Shown here: positions 7,093 to 15,916 of the stretch, piece by piece
How the letters are laid out: every line of letters begins with the position of its first letter
How positions within the stretch are numbered: position 1 is the stretch's first letter
Assembly (NCBI GenBank): GCA_030018585.1
Contig: JASEHZ010000003.1
Span: 1 to 39,757 of the forward strand
DNA from: Patescibacteria group bacterium
Lineage (GTDB): Bacteria > Patescibacteriota > Minisyncoccia > UBA6257 > GWB1-50-10
Direction: 5' to 3'
DNA: 39,757 nucleotides
Made by a program: the position numbers and the translations under genes
Notes under the pieces: model-generated
What the model was told of the DNA's origin: nothing
The model's input: only the letters and a program-made list of their open reading frames with translations
Databases searched by the model: none

Positions 7093-7376
7093 CCCCCACA
7101 CCAAATTTATTTTAAACTCTCCACTAATCTCTTTTTGAGTTGTGTAAAGGCTCGACTTCGAAGTTTTGGGCTTGATTCTCTGCGTCGAGCGTCCGACTCC
7201 GCTTTGTACGCCTCGAAACACAACAACTCAAAGGGACAACGAGTTTTTGTGGAAAATATTTTTCCACTATTATGCTCTTGAAGTCGTCGTCTCAAATCAT
7301 TAATCGAACCAATATAAAATTTATCGTCTTTCAAGTTTTTTAAAATATAGACGTAGAACATAATTTGGTGTGGGGG
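7093..7376 (-). mobile_element. Small IR-bracketed cassette carrying a GIY-YIG ORF
   Basis: 15-bp terminal inverted repeats CCCCCACACCAAATT (7093-7107) / AATTTGGTGTGGGGG (7362-7376); TAAA direct repeat on both sides (7089-7092, 7377-7380). Confidence 0.7.
7107..7361 (-). CDS. GIY-YIG nuclease superfamily small protein (UPF0213/YhbQ-like)
   Basis: 84 aa; MFYVYILKNLKDDKFYIGSINDLRRRLQEHNSG. Confidence 0.9.
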   Translation of the reverse strand: MFYVYILKNLKDDKFYIGSINDLRRRLQEHNSGKIFSTKTRCPFELLCFEAYKAESDARRRESSPKLRSRAFTQLKKRLVESLK

Positions 7377-7383
7377 TAAAGCA

Positions 7384-8250
7384 TCATAATTTATATTCCC
7401 CGATCAGACCCTGAGGTCTATATAACATTAACAGCATCAATATAATCCCGTAAATCACCTGACGCATTTGAGCTGCAATTTCATTAGGCATGCCCACAAA
7501 GCGCAAAATTTCCGGAATTAAAACCAAAAATATCGCGCCCAAAATTGAACCGCGCAAATTCGCAAGCCCGCCCAAAATAATTATTGCCAAAATAAAAATT
7601 GATTCGTTTAAAGTAAAAGTTGACGGGTCAATAAAAGAAATATAAGCCGCGAACAAAGAACCAGCCACAGCTGCTATAGCTCCGCCAATAACAAAAATAG
7701 AAAGCTTATAATGATGGGTATTATAACCGAAAACCTGCAATGCTTTTTCGTCTTCCCGAATACCTTTTAAAACTCTGCCGAAAGAAGAATCAACAACAAA
7801 ACAAGATATAAAATAAACAAGGACTGCAAATAAAACAACCAACATTAAAAATATCAGATTCTCGGAAAAATTAATGCTAAAAATGTTTGGCCTTGGAATT
7901 CCTGGAATACCAAGCGGCCCGCGAGTTAAATCCTGCCAATTCAAAAAAATACTGAAAATAATCACATTAAAACCGAAAGAACCTAAAGCATAATAATCAT
8001 CTTTAAACCGGTTTAAAATCATACCCACTGCAAGCGCAATAATACTGGAAACAATAACTCCTATCAATATAGAAACAAAAAAACTCACTCCAAGTTTTGT
8101 GGCAAGAATTGCTGTAGCATAAACGCCAATGCCGTAAAAAGCCGCGTGAGTAACAGATAAAAGCCCCGTATAACCCACAACCAAATTCAAGCTCAAACTT
8201 AAAATCACATAAATCGCTATAAGGATTGCTAAATGTATTAGATATTCCAT
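7384..8250 (-). CDS. livM: Branched-chain amino-acid ABC transporter permease LivM
   Basis: Multi-TM; LSLNLVVGYTGLLSVTHAAFYGIGVYATAIL, GGLANLRGSILGA, YRPQGLIG end. Confidence 0.92.
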   Translation of the reverse strand: MEYLIHLAILIAIYVILSLSLNLVVGYTGLLSVTHAAFYGIGVYATAILATKLGVSFFVSILIGVIVSSIIALAVGMILNRFKDDYYALGSFGFNVIIFSIFLNWQDLTRGPLGIPGIPRPNIFSINFSENLIFLMLVVLFAVLVYFISCFVVDSSFGRVLKGIREDEKALQVFGYNTHHYKLSIFVIGGAIAAVAGSLFAAYISFIDPSTFTLNESIFILAIIILGGLANLRGSILGAIFLVLIPEILRFVGMPNEIAAQMRQVIYGIILMLLMLYRPQGLIGEYKL

Positions 8251-8507
8251 CCCGTACGAAACAGGAAACGCTTTAAACGAGATTTAATAAAACGTTTTCC
8301 TCCTCCTGATTTTAAATATAACTCTCTCGACCTTGCATCGTCTTGATCAATACAAGCCTCATAATAAATTAATTTGAACGGACCTCGTCCTTTTGTATAA
8401 GTTGACTTGCCATCATTATGTTCTTTAAAACGCTTCCGTAGATCATTTGTATACCCAGTATATAATTTACCATTTTTTAAACTCTTCAAGATATAAACGT
8501 AAAACAT
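8238..8507 (-). CDS. GIY-YIG nuclease superfamily small protein
   Basis: MFYVYILKSLKNGKLYTGYTNDLRKRFKEHNDGKS; upstream in-frame MDPVRNKSD derives from the terminal repeat, so the later ATG is preferred; stop overlaps the livM start. Confidence 0.88.
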   Translation of the reverse strand: MFYVYILKSLKNGKLYTGYTNDLRKRFKEHNDGKSTYTKGRGPFKLIYYEACIDQDDARSRELYLKSGGGKRFIKSRLKRFLFRTGWNI

Positions 8508-8529
8508 GTCTGATTTGTTTCGTACGGGA
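8250..8529 (-). mobile_element. Second IR-bracketed GIY-YIG cassette
   Basis: 14-bp terminal inverted repeats TCCCGTACGAAACA (8250-8263) / TGTTTCGTACGGGA (8516-8529); TCCA direct repeat at 8246-8249 and 8530-8533. Confidence 0.72.
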
Positions 8530-8535
8530 TCCATA

Positions 8536-12495: not shown

Positions 12496-12846
12496 TTAAA
12501 TAAATTTAATCATGGCCATTTTTGAACCATCGTGCTTCCTCACTTTTGCTAATTTAACAATAGTCGTATAACCACCTTTCCGATCTTTATAGCGTGGCGC
12601 TAATTCATGATAAACTTTATAAGCCGCTCTTTTTGGCAAATATTTTATAAGCAACCGCAAGGAAGCAATATTTTGTTTTTTGCCATAAGTAATAAAACGC
12701 TCAACTACAGATCTTATTTCTTTAGCTCTGGCTTCGGTTGTGGTCACGCGTTCGTGCTGAATTAAATTATTGGCCAGAATTTTTAAAAAGGACCGCCTTT
12801 TCCCTTTTTTTAAACCGAATTTTCTTCCTTTTTTTAAATGACGCAT
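12496..12846 (-). CDS. rplQ: Ribosomal protein bL17
   Basis: MRHLKKGRKFGLKKGKRRSFLKILANNLIQHERVTTTEARAKEIR. Confidence 0.95.
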   Translation of the reverse strand: MRHLKKGRKFGLKKGKRRSFLKILANNLIQHERVTTTEARAKEIRSVVERFITYGKKQNIASLRLLIKYLPKRAAYKVYHELAPRYKDRKGGYTTIVKLAKVRKHDGSKMAMIKFI

Positions 12847-12857
12847 GCTGTTTTTGA

Positions 12858-12899
12858 CTAAAATTTCAAGCCCAATTGCAGCGCAGAAAATTTAGCTGC
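12858..12899 (-). promoter_or_regulatory. rplQ leader element with interleaved helices
   Basis: S1 GCAGC (12878-12882)/GCTGC (12895-12899); S2 CTAAAATTTC (12858-12867)/GAAAATTTAG (12886-12895), one T.T mismatch; ends 11 nt before the rplQ ATG. Confidence 0.55.
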
Positions 12900-12909
12900 G
12901 AATTTGAGC

Positions 12910-13017
12910 ACCGAGCACATAAAACATAAAACCAGTGTTCGATATTTCGACTTGTTGATTTGTATTATTAAAATTGATGAATATCATATGTTATCTTTAG
13001 TAATTTATGTGCTCGGT
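12910..13017. repeat. Inverted-repeat bracket in the rpoA-rplQ spacer
   Basis: ACCGAGCACATAAA (12910-12923) / TTTATGTGCTCGGT (13004-13017), 14 bp perfect. Confidence 0.85.
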
Positions 13018-13143: not shown

Positions 13144-13185
13144 TCGACGCTCATTCCATTCGCGGGAAGGTGCGGGAGTTTTGTC

Positions 13186-13228
13186 TATAAAATTACTTCT
13201 TCGCCAGCTGGCGAATCGTAATTTTATA
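13186..13228. repeat. Hairpin just after the rpoA stop, core TTCGCCAGCTGGCGAA
   Basis: TATAAAATTAC ... TTCGCCAGCTGGCGAA ... GTAATTTTATA. Confidence 0.85.
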
Positions 13229-13236
13229 CAAAGCCC

Positions 13237-13986
13237 TTACTTCTTTTTGCCCTTCTTTTCTTTTTCTTTATGTTTAACAACCTCAACTTTAAGAACTTCT
13301 ATGGCGGAAATTTTATCAAAATGATCTTTCAAAATATTGGCTGATTTATGAACAGCTTCTGAGGGACTAATTGAACCATCGGTTTCCACTTCAAGCTGCA
13401 GACGATTGTAATCAGTTCGATCACCGACGCGCATATTTTCAACAAAAAACGTCACTCTCACAATTGGCGAAAAAATAGCATCGAGCACAACCGTGCCAAC
13501 CGGCAATCGCTCAAGACGACGCGCTTCGGCTGGCACATAACCCAAACCCTTTTCAACTGTTAATTCTGCATCAAAATCAGCGTTTTTCTTTGTTAAGCTC
13601 GCAAGATAAAGTTCTGGATTTACAACTTTAACCAAAGTCGTACTTTGAATATCGGATGCTTTTATTTCTTTTTCGCCTTTCGCTTTTAAAGCTAAAACCT
13701 GCGGCTCTTCGGCAAAAAAATGAAAACGAACTTTTTTTAAATTAAGAGTGAATTCAACAATGTCTTCTATCATTCCCGGCAGAGTCGAAAATTCATGATC
13801 AATATTTTTAATTTTAATTTGAGTAATGGCTGCTCCCGGCAACGACGAAAGCAGTGTCCGACGGAGAGCATTGCCTAAAGTATTGCCATAACCAGTATAA
13901 AGACCTTCAATGTAAAAAATGCCGATATTTTCTTTTTCGGAAATTTTTTTAATTTCGACTGTTTCGCTTAAACGTGAATATTTCAT
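13237..13986 (-). CDS. rpoA: DNA-directed RNA polymerase alpha subunit (short, 249 aa)
   Basis: GNTLGNALRRTLLSSLPGAAIT; RVGDRTDYNRLQLEVETDGSISPSEAV; no alpha-CTD visible. Confidence 0.95.
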   Translation of the reverse strand: MKYSRLSETVEIKKISEKENIGIFYIEGLYTGYGNTLGNALRRTLLSSLPGAAITQIKIKNIDHEFSTLPGMIEDIVEFTLNLKKVRFHFFAEEPQVLALKAKGEKEIKASDIQSTTLVKVVNPELYLASLTKKNADFDAELTVEKGLGYVPAEARRLERLPVGTVVLDAIFSPIVRVTFFVENMRVGDRTDYNRLQLEVETDGSISPSEAVHKSANILKDHFDKISAIEVLKVEVVKHKEKEKKGKKK

Positions 13987-15141: not shown

Positions 15142-15525
15142 TTATTTAAGCTCTATTTTTCTCTTACCGCTGCCGGCGGTTTTTCTTACATTGCCGCGAA
15201 TCGTCCGAGAATTAGTTTTAGTCCGCTGCCCCCGAACAGGCAAACGACGCAAATGCCTTATGCCACGATAAGCTTTTATATCTTTTAAACGACTAATATT
15301 TCCTTTGATAATTTGTCGAAGCTCGCCTTCAACTTTATAGTTTTTCTCAATCATGGACTGAATTTTACTAACTTCTTCCGGCGTCAAATCTTTTGCCCGC
15401 TTGTTCGGATTAATCTTGGTCTCAGACAAAATACGTCGGGACAATGACCGACCAATACCGTAAAGATACATTAAAGAAATTTCAATTTTTTTGCTATCTG
15501 GTATATTTACTCCAATAATACGCAT
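15142..15525 (-). CDS. rpsM: Ribosomal protein uS13
   Basis: MRIIGVNIPDSKKIEISLMYLYGIGRSLSRRIL; YRGIRHLRRLPVRGQRTKTNSRTIRG. Confidence 0.95.
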   Translation of the reverse strand: MRIIGVNIPDSKKIEISLMYLYGIGRSLSRRILSETKINPNKRAKDLTPEEVSKIQSMIEKNYKVEGELRQIIKGNISRLKDIKAYRGIRHLRRLPVRGQRTKTNSRTIRGNVRKTAGSGKRKIELK

Positions 15526-15536
15526 GCCGATTATGT

Positions 15537-15577
15537 ATAAATTTTCGAGTCTGTAGACGATGAAAATTTATCTACAG
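15537..15577 (-). promoter_or_regulatory. rpsM leader element with interleaved helices
   Basis: S1 CTGTAGA (15551-15557)/TCTACAG (15571-15577); S2 ATAAATTTTC (15537-15546)/GAAAATTTAT (15562-15571); ends 11 nt before the rpsM ATG. Confidence 0.6.
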
Positions 15578-15585
15578 AATCGAGC

Positions 15586-15735
15586 ACCCCGCCCTTTTGC
15601 TTTCGTGAATTTGAATCCTGAAACAAAGCAAAGCGGAGCCCAGCACTACAACTTCGTTGTAGTGCTGGACGGAGCGATCCGACTTCGTCTTTATTTTTAT
15701 ATGTTTTCATAAATATTGCCATAAAAGGGCGGGGT
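15586..15735. repeat. Inverted-repeat bracket in the rpmJ-rpsM spacer
   Basis: ACCCCGCCCTTTT (15586-15598) / AAAAGGGCGGGGT (15723-15735), 13 bp perfect. Confidence 0.85.
15640..15668. repeat. Perfect hairpin nested in the bracket
   Basis: CCAGCACTACAAC-TTC-GTTGTAGTGCTGG. Confidence 0.9.
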
Positions 15736-15747
15736 AAGGTTTGATTA

Positions 15748-15788
15748 ATAAATTTTCTGTTTCGTCAGCTGACGAATTGAAAATTTAT
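15748..15788. repeat. Hairpin after rpmJ, core TTCGTCAGCTGACGAA
   Basis: ATAAATTTTC ... TTCGTCAGCTGACGAA ... GAAAATTTAT. Confidence 0.85.
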
Positions 15789-15802
15789 ATCAAGCCCTTA
15801 CT

Positions 15803-15916
15803 TTAACCTTGCCTTTGTTTATGTTTGGGATTCTGACAAATAACATAAACGCGCCCTTTGCGGCGAACTGTCTTGCATTTCATACAAATCTTTTTTACTG
15901 ATGATCTTACTTTCAT
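15803..15916 (-). CDS. rpmJ: Ribosomal protein bL36
   Basis: Translation [37 protein letters not shown]; lies inside the longer 15819..16031 region but in its own frame. Confidence 0.93.

Follow-up and report, generated by a model that had tools for sequence, protein, structure and literature searches.

The leader of rpsM in the analysed window (the whole stretch of 39,757 nucleotides from a Patescibacteria genome) is probably the right terminal hairpin of a mobile intergenic element, and translation of a mini-ORF carried by the element would open this hairpin, which covers the start codon. Sequence comparison among related genomes shows that the element is dispersed, has moved recently and has codon-exact ends; from the same material we infer a transposition mechanism and a regulatory role.

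On the minus strand, positions 15577–15526 read CTGTAGATAAATTTTCATCGTCTACAGACTCGAAAATTTATACATAATCGGC and are followed immediately by the ATG (15525–15523) of rpsM, the gene for S13 (15142–15525, minus strand; Pfam PF00416, 5.5e-30). The identities of rpsM, rpsK, rpsD and rpoA in the window were confirmed by Pfam, and another frame is taken by us to be rplQ from its sequence and genomic place. The gene upstream of rpsM is a 37-aa frame assigned to rpmJ by its sequence and by its location, after infA and before rpsM (15803–15916, minus strand; stop TAA 15805–15803). The infA–rpmJ spacer (16040–15915, minus strand) harbors another long inverted repeat, CCCTCACCCTTTGAGGATTCT...ATTCTCAAAGGGTGAGGG.

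The original prediction described two interleaved helices in these 52 nt, in the order S1, S2, S1', S2' and with an 11-nt gap to the ATG, and this reading of the minus strand is accurate throughout: S1 (CTGTAGA/TCTACAG) has 7 bp, S2 (ATAAATTTTC/GAAAATTTAT) has 10 bp, A15571 is common to both, and a Shine–Dalgarno sequence near the rpsM ATG is indeed absent. When the 52 nt were shuffled 20,000 times by mononucleotides, an interleaved 7 + 9 bp pair never appeared. Both helices are also conserved in related copies, where S2 covaries and S1-type pairing is kept in 58 family and 38 out-of-family copies. As a full description of the leader, the two helices, real as they are, miss a third one, A:C (TGC-t-CGATT/AATCG-GCA), located around S2 and over the start-codon region, as well as the extension of S1 and the nature of the whole as a dispersed repeat. 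Since S1 extends over a strand also used by the third helix, S1 and A:C are mutually exclusive. The helices had been thought to form either an H-type pseudoknot or an exclusive switch; by general geometry, the S1 + S2 pseudoknot is sterically implausible, with loops of 0 and 4 nt across 10 and 7 bp, and was rejected, so mutual exclusion is the better reading.

The start-codon hairpin, referred to below as H2, is composed on the minus strand of strand A (GGTGCTCGATTCTGTAG, 15572–15588), which by comparative pairing has C (start hidden) or B (S1) as its partner; the 5' strand of S2 (ATAAATTTTC, 15562–15571); strand B (TCTACAGACTCGA, 15545–15557), i.e., the extended S1', recognized as the partner of A in the family and independent sets; the 3' strand of S2 (GAAAATTTAT, 15537–15546); and strand C (ACATAATCGGCATG, 15523–15536), which includes the rpsM start codon. 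Both S2 strands were delimited by covariation, and strand C by covariation together with the start-codon offset. The lowest-energy predicted fold of the rpsM H2 is the start-covering form (−20.1 kcal/mol).

H2 is by no means confined to rpsM. The 66 nt of the rpsM leader recur at 92% identity before rplF in the host genome (G000, 682 kb searched with the region), where related copies precede groES and nusA; all of them reach the start codon or stop just short of it. Overall, the host genome contains at least 10 distinct hairpins, and H2 copies precede rpsM, rplF, rplP, rplQ, rplY, groES and nusA. Copies are present in other genera of the host family as well: a covariance model (R1) retrieved about 100 hairpins, spread over 26 of the 43 family genomes, and a second one (R2) found matches in 54 of 149 genomes sampled from the order, some order genomes showing no element, although the strict filters of the search undercount. 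Across a sample of the phylum, R2 matched 3 of 288 genomes under strict filters, two of the three being the host and another genome of its order. By rpsM identity, the lineage belongs to Patescibacteria and is close to Giovannonibacteria and Ryanbacteria. Of the 42 best out-of-family matches, 41 have their end at the start codon of an ORF (≥60 aa), in two main registers relative to this codon, GGCATG (−3) and ATGGCA (−8), and nearly all H2 copies lie at one of these two offsets. Family models confirmed, among others, mraZ, rplF, rpsK, proS, rpmA, rplK, rplP, recR, groES, rplY and nusA as downstream genes. No element matches were found around rpsM in the named genomes, and a literature search of open-licence papers returned no report of such an element in Patescibacteria.

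Certain copies display peculiarities of their own. H2 precedes rpmA in about ten genera (L067, L071, L077, L106, L108, L116, L123), with the first codons ATGGCA within the stem and often with a mini GC hairpin in front, e.g., CCCGCCNNNGGCGGG; it is either an old retained copy or a repeated insertion. Before nusA (L011 1887–1965, G000:C1), H2 is open in frame with the gene, which may thus have an N-terminal extension stemming from the element (MCSVFNAVDKFSSLQHRSKIYTSLIN-M...). One more copy is located within the beginning of a pilin-like gene (L072 1201–1264, G037:C1:232591–232654) and encodes the leader MDKFSSLRSKIYKKSAFTLIE, i.e., an element end turned into coding sequence.

This dispersal bears on the function first suspected for the leader. 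In E. coli, the ribosome binding site of rpsM is covered by a pseudoknot to which ribosomal protein S4 binds (PMC10931766), and an S4-binding pseudoknot autoregulating the alpha operon in the same way would be in line with the position before rpsM and with the interleaved helices. Such a device has next to no probability here and was discarded: the same structure precedes many unrelated genes outside the S4-encoding operon (rplF, rplP, rplY, groES, nusA, mraZ, proS, recR, etc.), and nearly all family rpsM leaders are devoid of it, with the element directly upstream in only 2 of 43 (G000 and G022) and a decayed relic in G038. Moreover, the loop lengths are unsuited to an S1 + S2 pseudoknot, and Rfam yielded no match at the gathering score in the whole window and no credible match to the alpha-operon leader up to E = 10 in 15400–15900. 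Of the features tested, the E. coli S4 operator and the rpsM leader have position alone in common.

H2 is one end of a larger unit, whose order is H1, an inverted-repeat stem with cargo, and H2; H1 has the architecture of a reversed H2 and the consensus TAAGGGCTTTGT-stem-loop-stem-ACAAAACCTTACC. The first three bases of H1 are the stop codon of a same-strand upstream gene in 36 of 47 units. In the rpsM unit, H1 (15733–15800, minus strand; TAAGGGCTTGAT-ATAAATTTTC-loop(CGTCAGCTGACG)-GAAAATTTAT-TAATCAAACCTTACC, recognized from the sequence and the family H1 consensus) has its TAA 2 nt past the rpmJ stop. The arms of the central inverted repeat, ACCCCGCCCTTTT on the left (15723–15735, minus strand) and AAAAGGGCGGGGT on the right (15586–15598, minus strand), are exact reverse complements over 13 bp. 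A second unit in the window is delimited by an H1 (13169–13239, minus strand) whose TAA (13239–13237) is the rpoA stop codon and by an H2 (12844–12912, minus strand) ending with the rplQ start codon (ATG 12846–12844). Given that H1 opens with the upstream stop and H2 closes with the downstream start, the unit replaces the spacer between cotranscribed genes and leaves both genes undamaged.

The inverted-repeat span is about 90–115 bp in most short units and 150 bp in the rpsM unit, the cargo of which also includes a perfect 13-bp hairpin, CCAGCACTACAACgaaGTTGTAGTGCTGG (15640–15668, minus strand), not observed in other units. In long units, the span reaches 254–271 bp and encloses a 75–80-codon GIY-YIG ORF. 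Four such units were seen, G000:C1 (before nusA), G002:C39, G011:C4 and G024:C4, and Pfam PF01541 confirmed the ORFs of G000:C1 and G002:C39 (1.6e-9 and 4.5e-10). The long units are probably the autonomous form, and the short ones would be non-autonomous; the likeness of YKNKDEV in short-unit cargo to YKNKEDA offers a lead, and only a lead, that this cargo could be a remnant of the GIY-YIG gene. By its association with the four long units, the nuclease may drive the spread of the element. Two more small GIY-YIG genes occur in the window on the minus strand, at 7107–7361 and 8238–8534 (Pfam 3e-14 and 1e-18, respectively); the former lies within an inverted repeat of its own (ACCCCCACACCAAATT...AATTTGGTGTGGGGGT), without H1 or H2, and possibly represents a sister class of nuclease element.

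Recent mobility is evident from the comparison of occupied and empty junctions. The recR junction is occupied in G030 and G026 (GCATTTTAA-[214 nt]-ATGATCCC) and empty in G029, where a 10-nt spacer is found instead (GCATTTTAA-ATCTCCTCCC-ATGATCCC) and the flanks are 96–97% identical to those of the occupied genomes. TTTTAA-ATCTCCTCCC-ATG in G029 stands against TTTTAA, the 214-nt element and ATG in G030 and G026. This junction is also empty in G027 and G028, and a different insertion is located there in G031. Similarly, the element occupies the ddl junction of G030, and that of G026 is empty, with the original spacer and the first codons in the place of the element's end. The rpmJ–rpsM spacer is short and element-free in most family genomes, and the same-genus genome G038 retains a decayed piece before rpsM, AATTCAAACAACATTAGC-ATG, which matches the 3' half of H2. 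Taken together, the empty and occupied junctions, the element-free rpsM spacers and the G038 relic indicate that the rpsM leader arrived by insertion and is not an ancestral control site. At recR, no target-site duplication is visible, and the occupied site lacks the 10-nt spacer. The search for a defined target sequence of the element gave none, no transposase could be linked to it, and the Y1 transposase model PF01797 had no match in the host genome. Two host contigs open with a common sequence (ATGCCATTCCCTTACTTTACC...; L010 1–60 is the same as L011 1–60), a repeat which probably broke the assembly.

The features described so far could in principle belong to a mobile palindrome acting at the DNA level only, with H1 and H2 serving transposition as single-stranded hairpins or cruciforms and having no role in translation; the ends would then coincide with stop and start codons because other insertions were selected out. 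This reading, which we consider unlikely, accords with the outer architecture common to H1, with the replacement of empty sites and with the near-perfect Watson–Crick character of A:C and S2. In the first 11 copies, 11 of the 18 A:C and S2 pairs show changes on both sides and 94.9% of the cells are paired; none of 500 shuffles scored as high, and slid controls collapsed. Among 38 sense-strand out-of-family copies, 97.7% of the cells of these helices (666/682) are Watson–Crick; the pair counts designated A3 are inflated, since both strands of some palindromes were included in them. There is no excess of G-U over A-C in A:C and S2, which are nearly perfect helices, so these stems may also serve DNA mobility. 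The nested A:C + S2 helix alone did not separate an RNA role from a DNA role.

Only the A:B pairing did. In the 58 family copies, the A:B duplex has a mean energy of −11.9 kcal/mol vs. −7.9 ± 0.28 with the loops swapped between copies, and its mismatches comprise 59 G-U and 15 A-C (56 and 34 in the swapped controls). The 38 independent out-of-family copies gave −12.8 vs. −9.9 ± 0.30 for swapped loops, with 33 G-U and 3 A-C mismatches vs. 36.5 and 12.0. A G-U bias on the mRNA strand is a mark of RNA pairing, not of double-stranded DNA palindromes. H1 showed no loop-arm pairing beyond the swapped controls; of the two hairpins, only the one at the start codon therefore has the alternative pairing. 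The DNA-level reading is thus at odds with an A:B pairing that H1 lacks and that both sets of copies maintain, with a G-U bias on the sense strand; furthermore, selection against damage leaves unexplained why the codons lie within the stems and not farther off. As far as comparative sequence data can show, strand A pairs with C and, alternatively, with B; the two states would form a switch.

The A:B wobble bias is likewise unexplained if the palindromes are protein sites of a promoter/operator, with TATACAT as a −10 box and a leaderless rpsM mRNA. In the rpsM copy, TATACAT does lie 9–15 nt upstream of the ATG, yet most copies have AGACAACATTGGCATG or similar in its place, and units reside within operons (rpsH–rplF, rpmJ–rpsM, rpoA–rplQ). 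The promoter reading was rejected, since the motif is not conserved, and is regarded as extremely improbable.

The translational role of H2 is suggested by the reading frames that cross it. Full units contain a frame of about 40 codons that begins at an ATG within the cargo, crosses H2 and terminates shortly before the downstream start codon. Its counterpart in the rpsM unit, supported by the enrichment of such frames in full units, has 63 codons (MAIFMKTYKNKDEV...DSKIYT; 15531–15722, minus strand) and the stop TAA at 15533–15531, 5 nt before the rpsM ATG; it had no Pfam match. Such a mini-ORF is present in 23 of the 25 family units classed strictly as full (mean 6.0, max 10 with shuffled upstream sequences) and in 14 of 24 full units of the independent set (mean 5.5, max 11), i.e., above all shuffles in both. 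Where no left partner of H2 was detected, the signal is weaker or lacking (18/41, with a shuffled max of 18, and 1/17). The coupling is not universal, as solo H2 copies and 10 of the 24 full units outside the family are without a mini-ORF. The TAG that would interrupt frame 1 is avoided by the frame-1 mini-ORFs (0 of 9) and tolerated by those in frame 2 (4 of 7). The use of two different frames means that the peptide is not conserved, and a conserved peptide (DKFSS..SKIYT) was rejected on this ground.

The strong enrichment of mini-ORFs ending just before the AUG in full units is a further point against a palindrome acting in DNA alone. The mini-ORF also has no explanation if the hairpins are transcription terminators or mRNA-processing sites insulating neighbor genes, a highly improbable reading in spite of the position of H1 after stop codons and of the units between cotranscribed genes: the H1 stem is AT-rich, with no U-tract directly after it, and the start codon is inside H2, where termination would silence the gene.

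In the reading that we prefer, a mobile element with a translationally opened start-codon hairpin, A:C pairing in the mRNA would hide the start codon, and A:B pairing in the loop would free it. Initiation would be repressed by the hairpin until the mini-ORF is translated. This ORF begins in the cargo, would be translated through H2 and terminates a few nt before the AUG of the gene; the terminating ribosome would melt A:C and S2 and then re-initiate at this AUG, which A:B, re-formed behind the ribosome, might keep open. The downstream gene would thereby be coupled to the translation of the mini-ORF.

Known systems match the element only in part. Prokaryotic MITEs, including RUs and Rickettsia palindromic elements, are its nearest structural kind and are likewise short, non-coding or mini-ORF-bearing, dispersed and lineage-specific, with inverted termini (PMC10969869, PMC2759123). 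The present element shares with them dispersed, near-identical copies (H2 is identical in G022 C74 and C75), an inverted terminal structure (H1/H2) and presence/absence at orthologous sites (the recR, ddl and rpsM junctions). Unlike MITEs, it showed no transposase relation or target duplication, replaces the spacer codon-exactly from stop to start, and has ends that covary and have a second possible pairing as RNA. REP/GTAG palindromes of RAYT transposases are also extragenic, and some copies of the element have GTAG beside the stem (PMC3733652); this kinship was ruled out, since the tag is variable (GTGG, ATGG and CTAG occur) and the host genome is without a Y1 transposase match.

Free-standing GIY-YIG (seg) genes of T-even phages are located between genes of their host, and in several of them a hairpin conceals the gene's own start site (PMC2988022). 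The element resembles them in its small GIY-YIG gene, which stands between host genes and is absent in relatives, in the spread to empty intergenic sites and in the RNA hairpins that would control translation. The T4 hairpins hide the ribosome binding site of the endonuclease itself, whereas here the start codon of the downstream host gene is covered; unlike T4 seg, the element has a mirror hairpin over the upstream stop codon, and most units are without a nuclease gene. In CPR bacteria, rRNA genes carry GIY-YIG-coding insertions unlike introns (PMC11270868). These belong to the same bacterial radiation, are non-intron insertions with small GIY-YIG genes and might be relatives of the element, though they sit inside rRNA genes, unlike the present intergenic element. 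Leader mini-cistrons, which uncover a hidden start site through translational coupling (the principle is exemplified in PMC11602170), provide the likeness of a short ORF through a hairpin with its stop adjoining the next start; the difference is that the module is carried here to dozens of different genes by a mobile element. Tentatively, the element may represent a class of mobile element which carries the whole stop-to-start punctuation and places the invaded gene under its own ORF via two competing pairings.

Patescibacteria have very small genomes, and still a mobile element widespread in one of their orders is found inside ribosomal-protein operons. Exact stop/start punctuation together with a portable translation-coupling device would give selfish DNA a route into tight operons without the death of the host. 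The element would likewise account for many tiny ORFs and GIY-YIG genes that annotations place between housekeeping genes; the covariance models make its family searchable. If the proposed coupling is true, an invaded and often essential ribosomal gene would be governed by the element's own reading frame.
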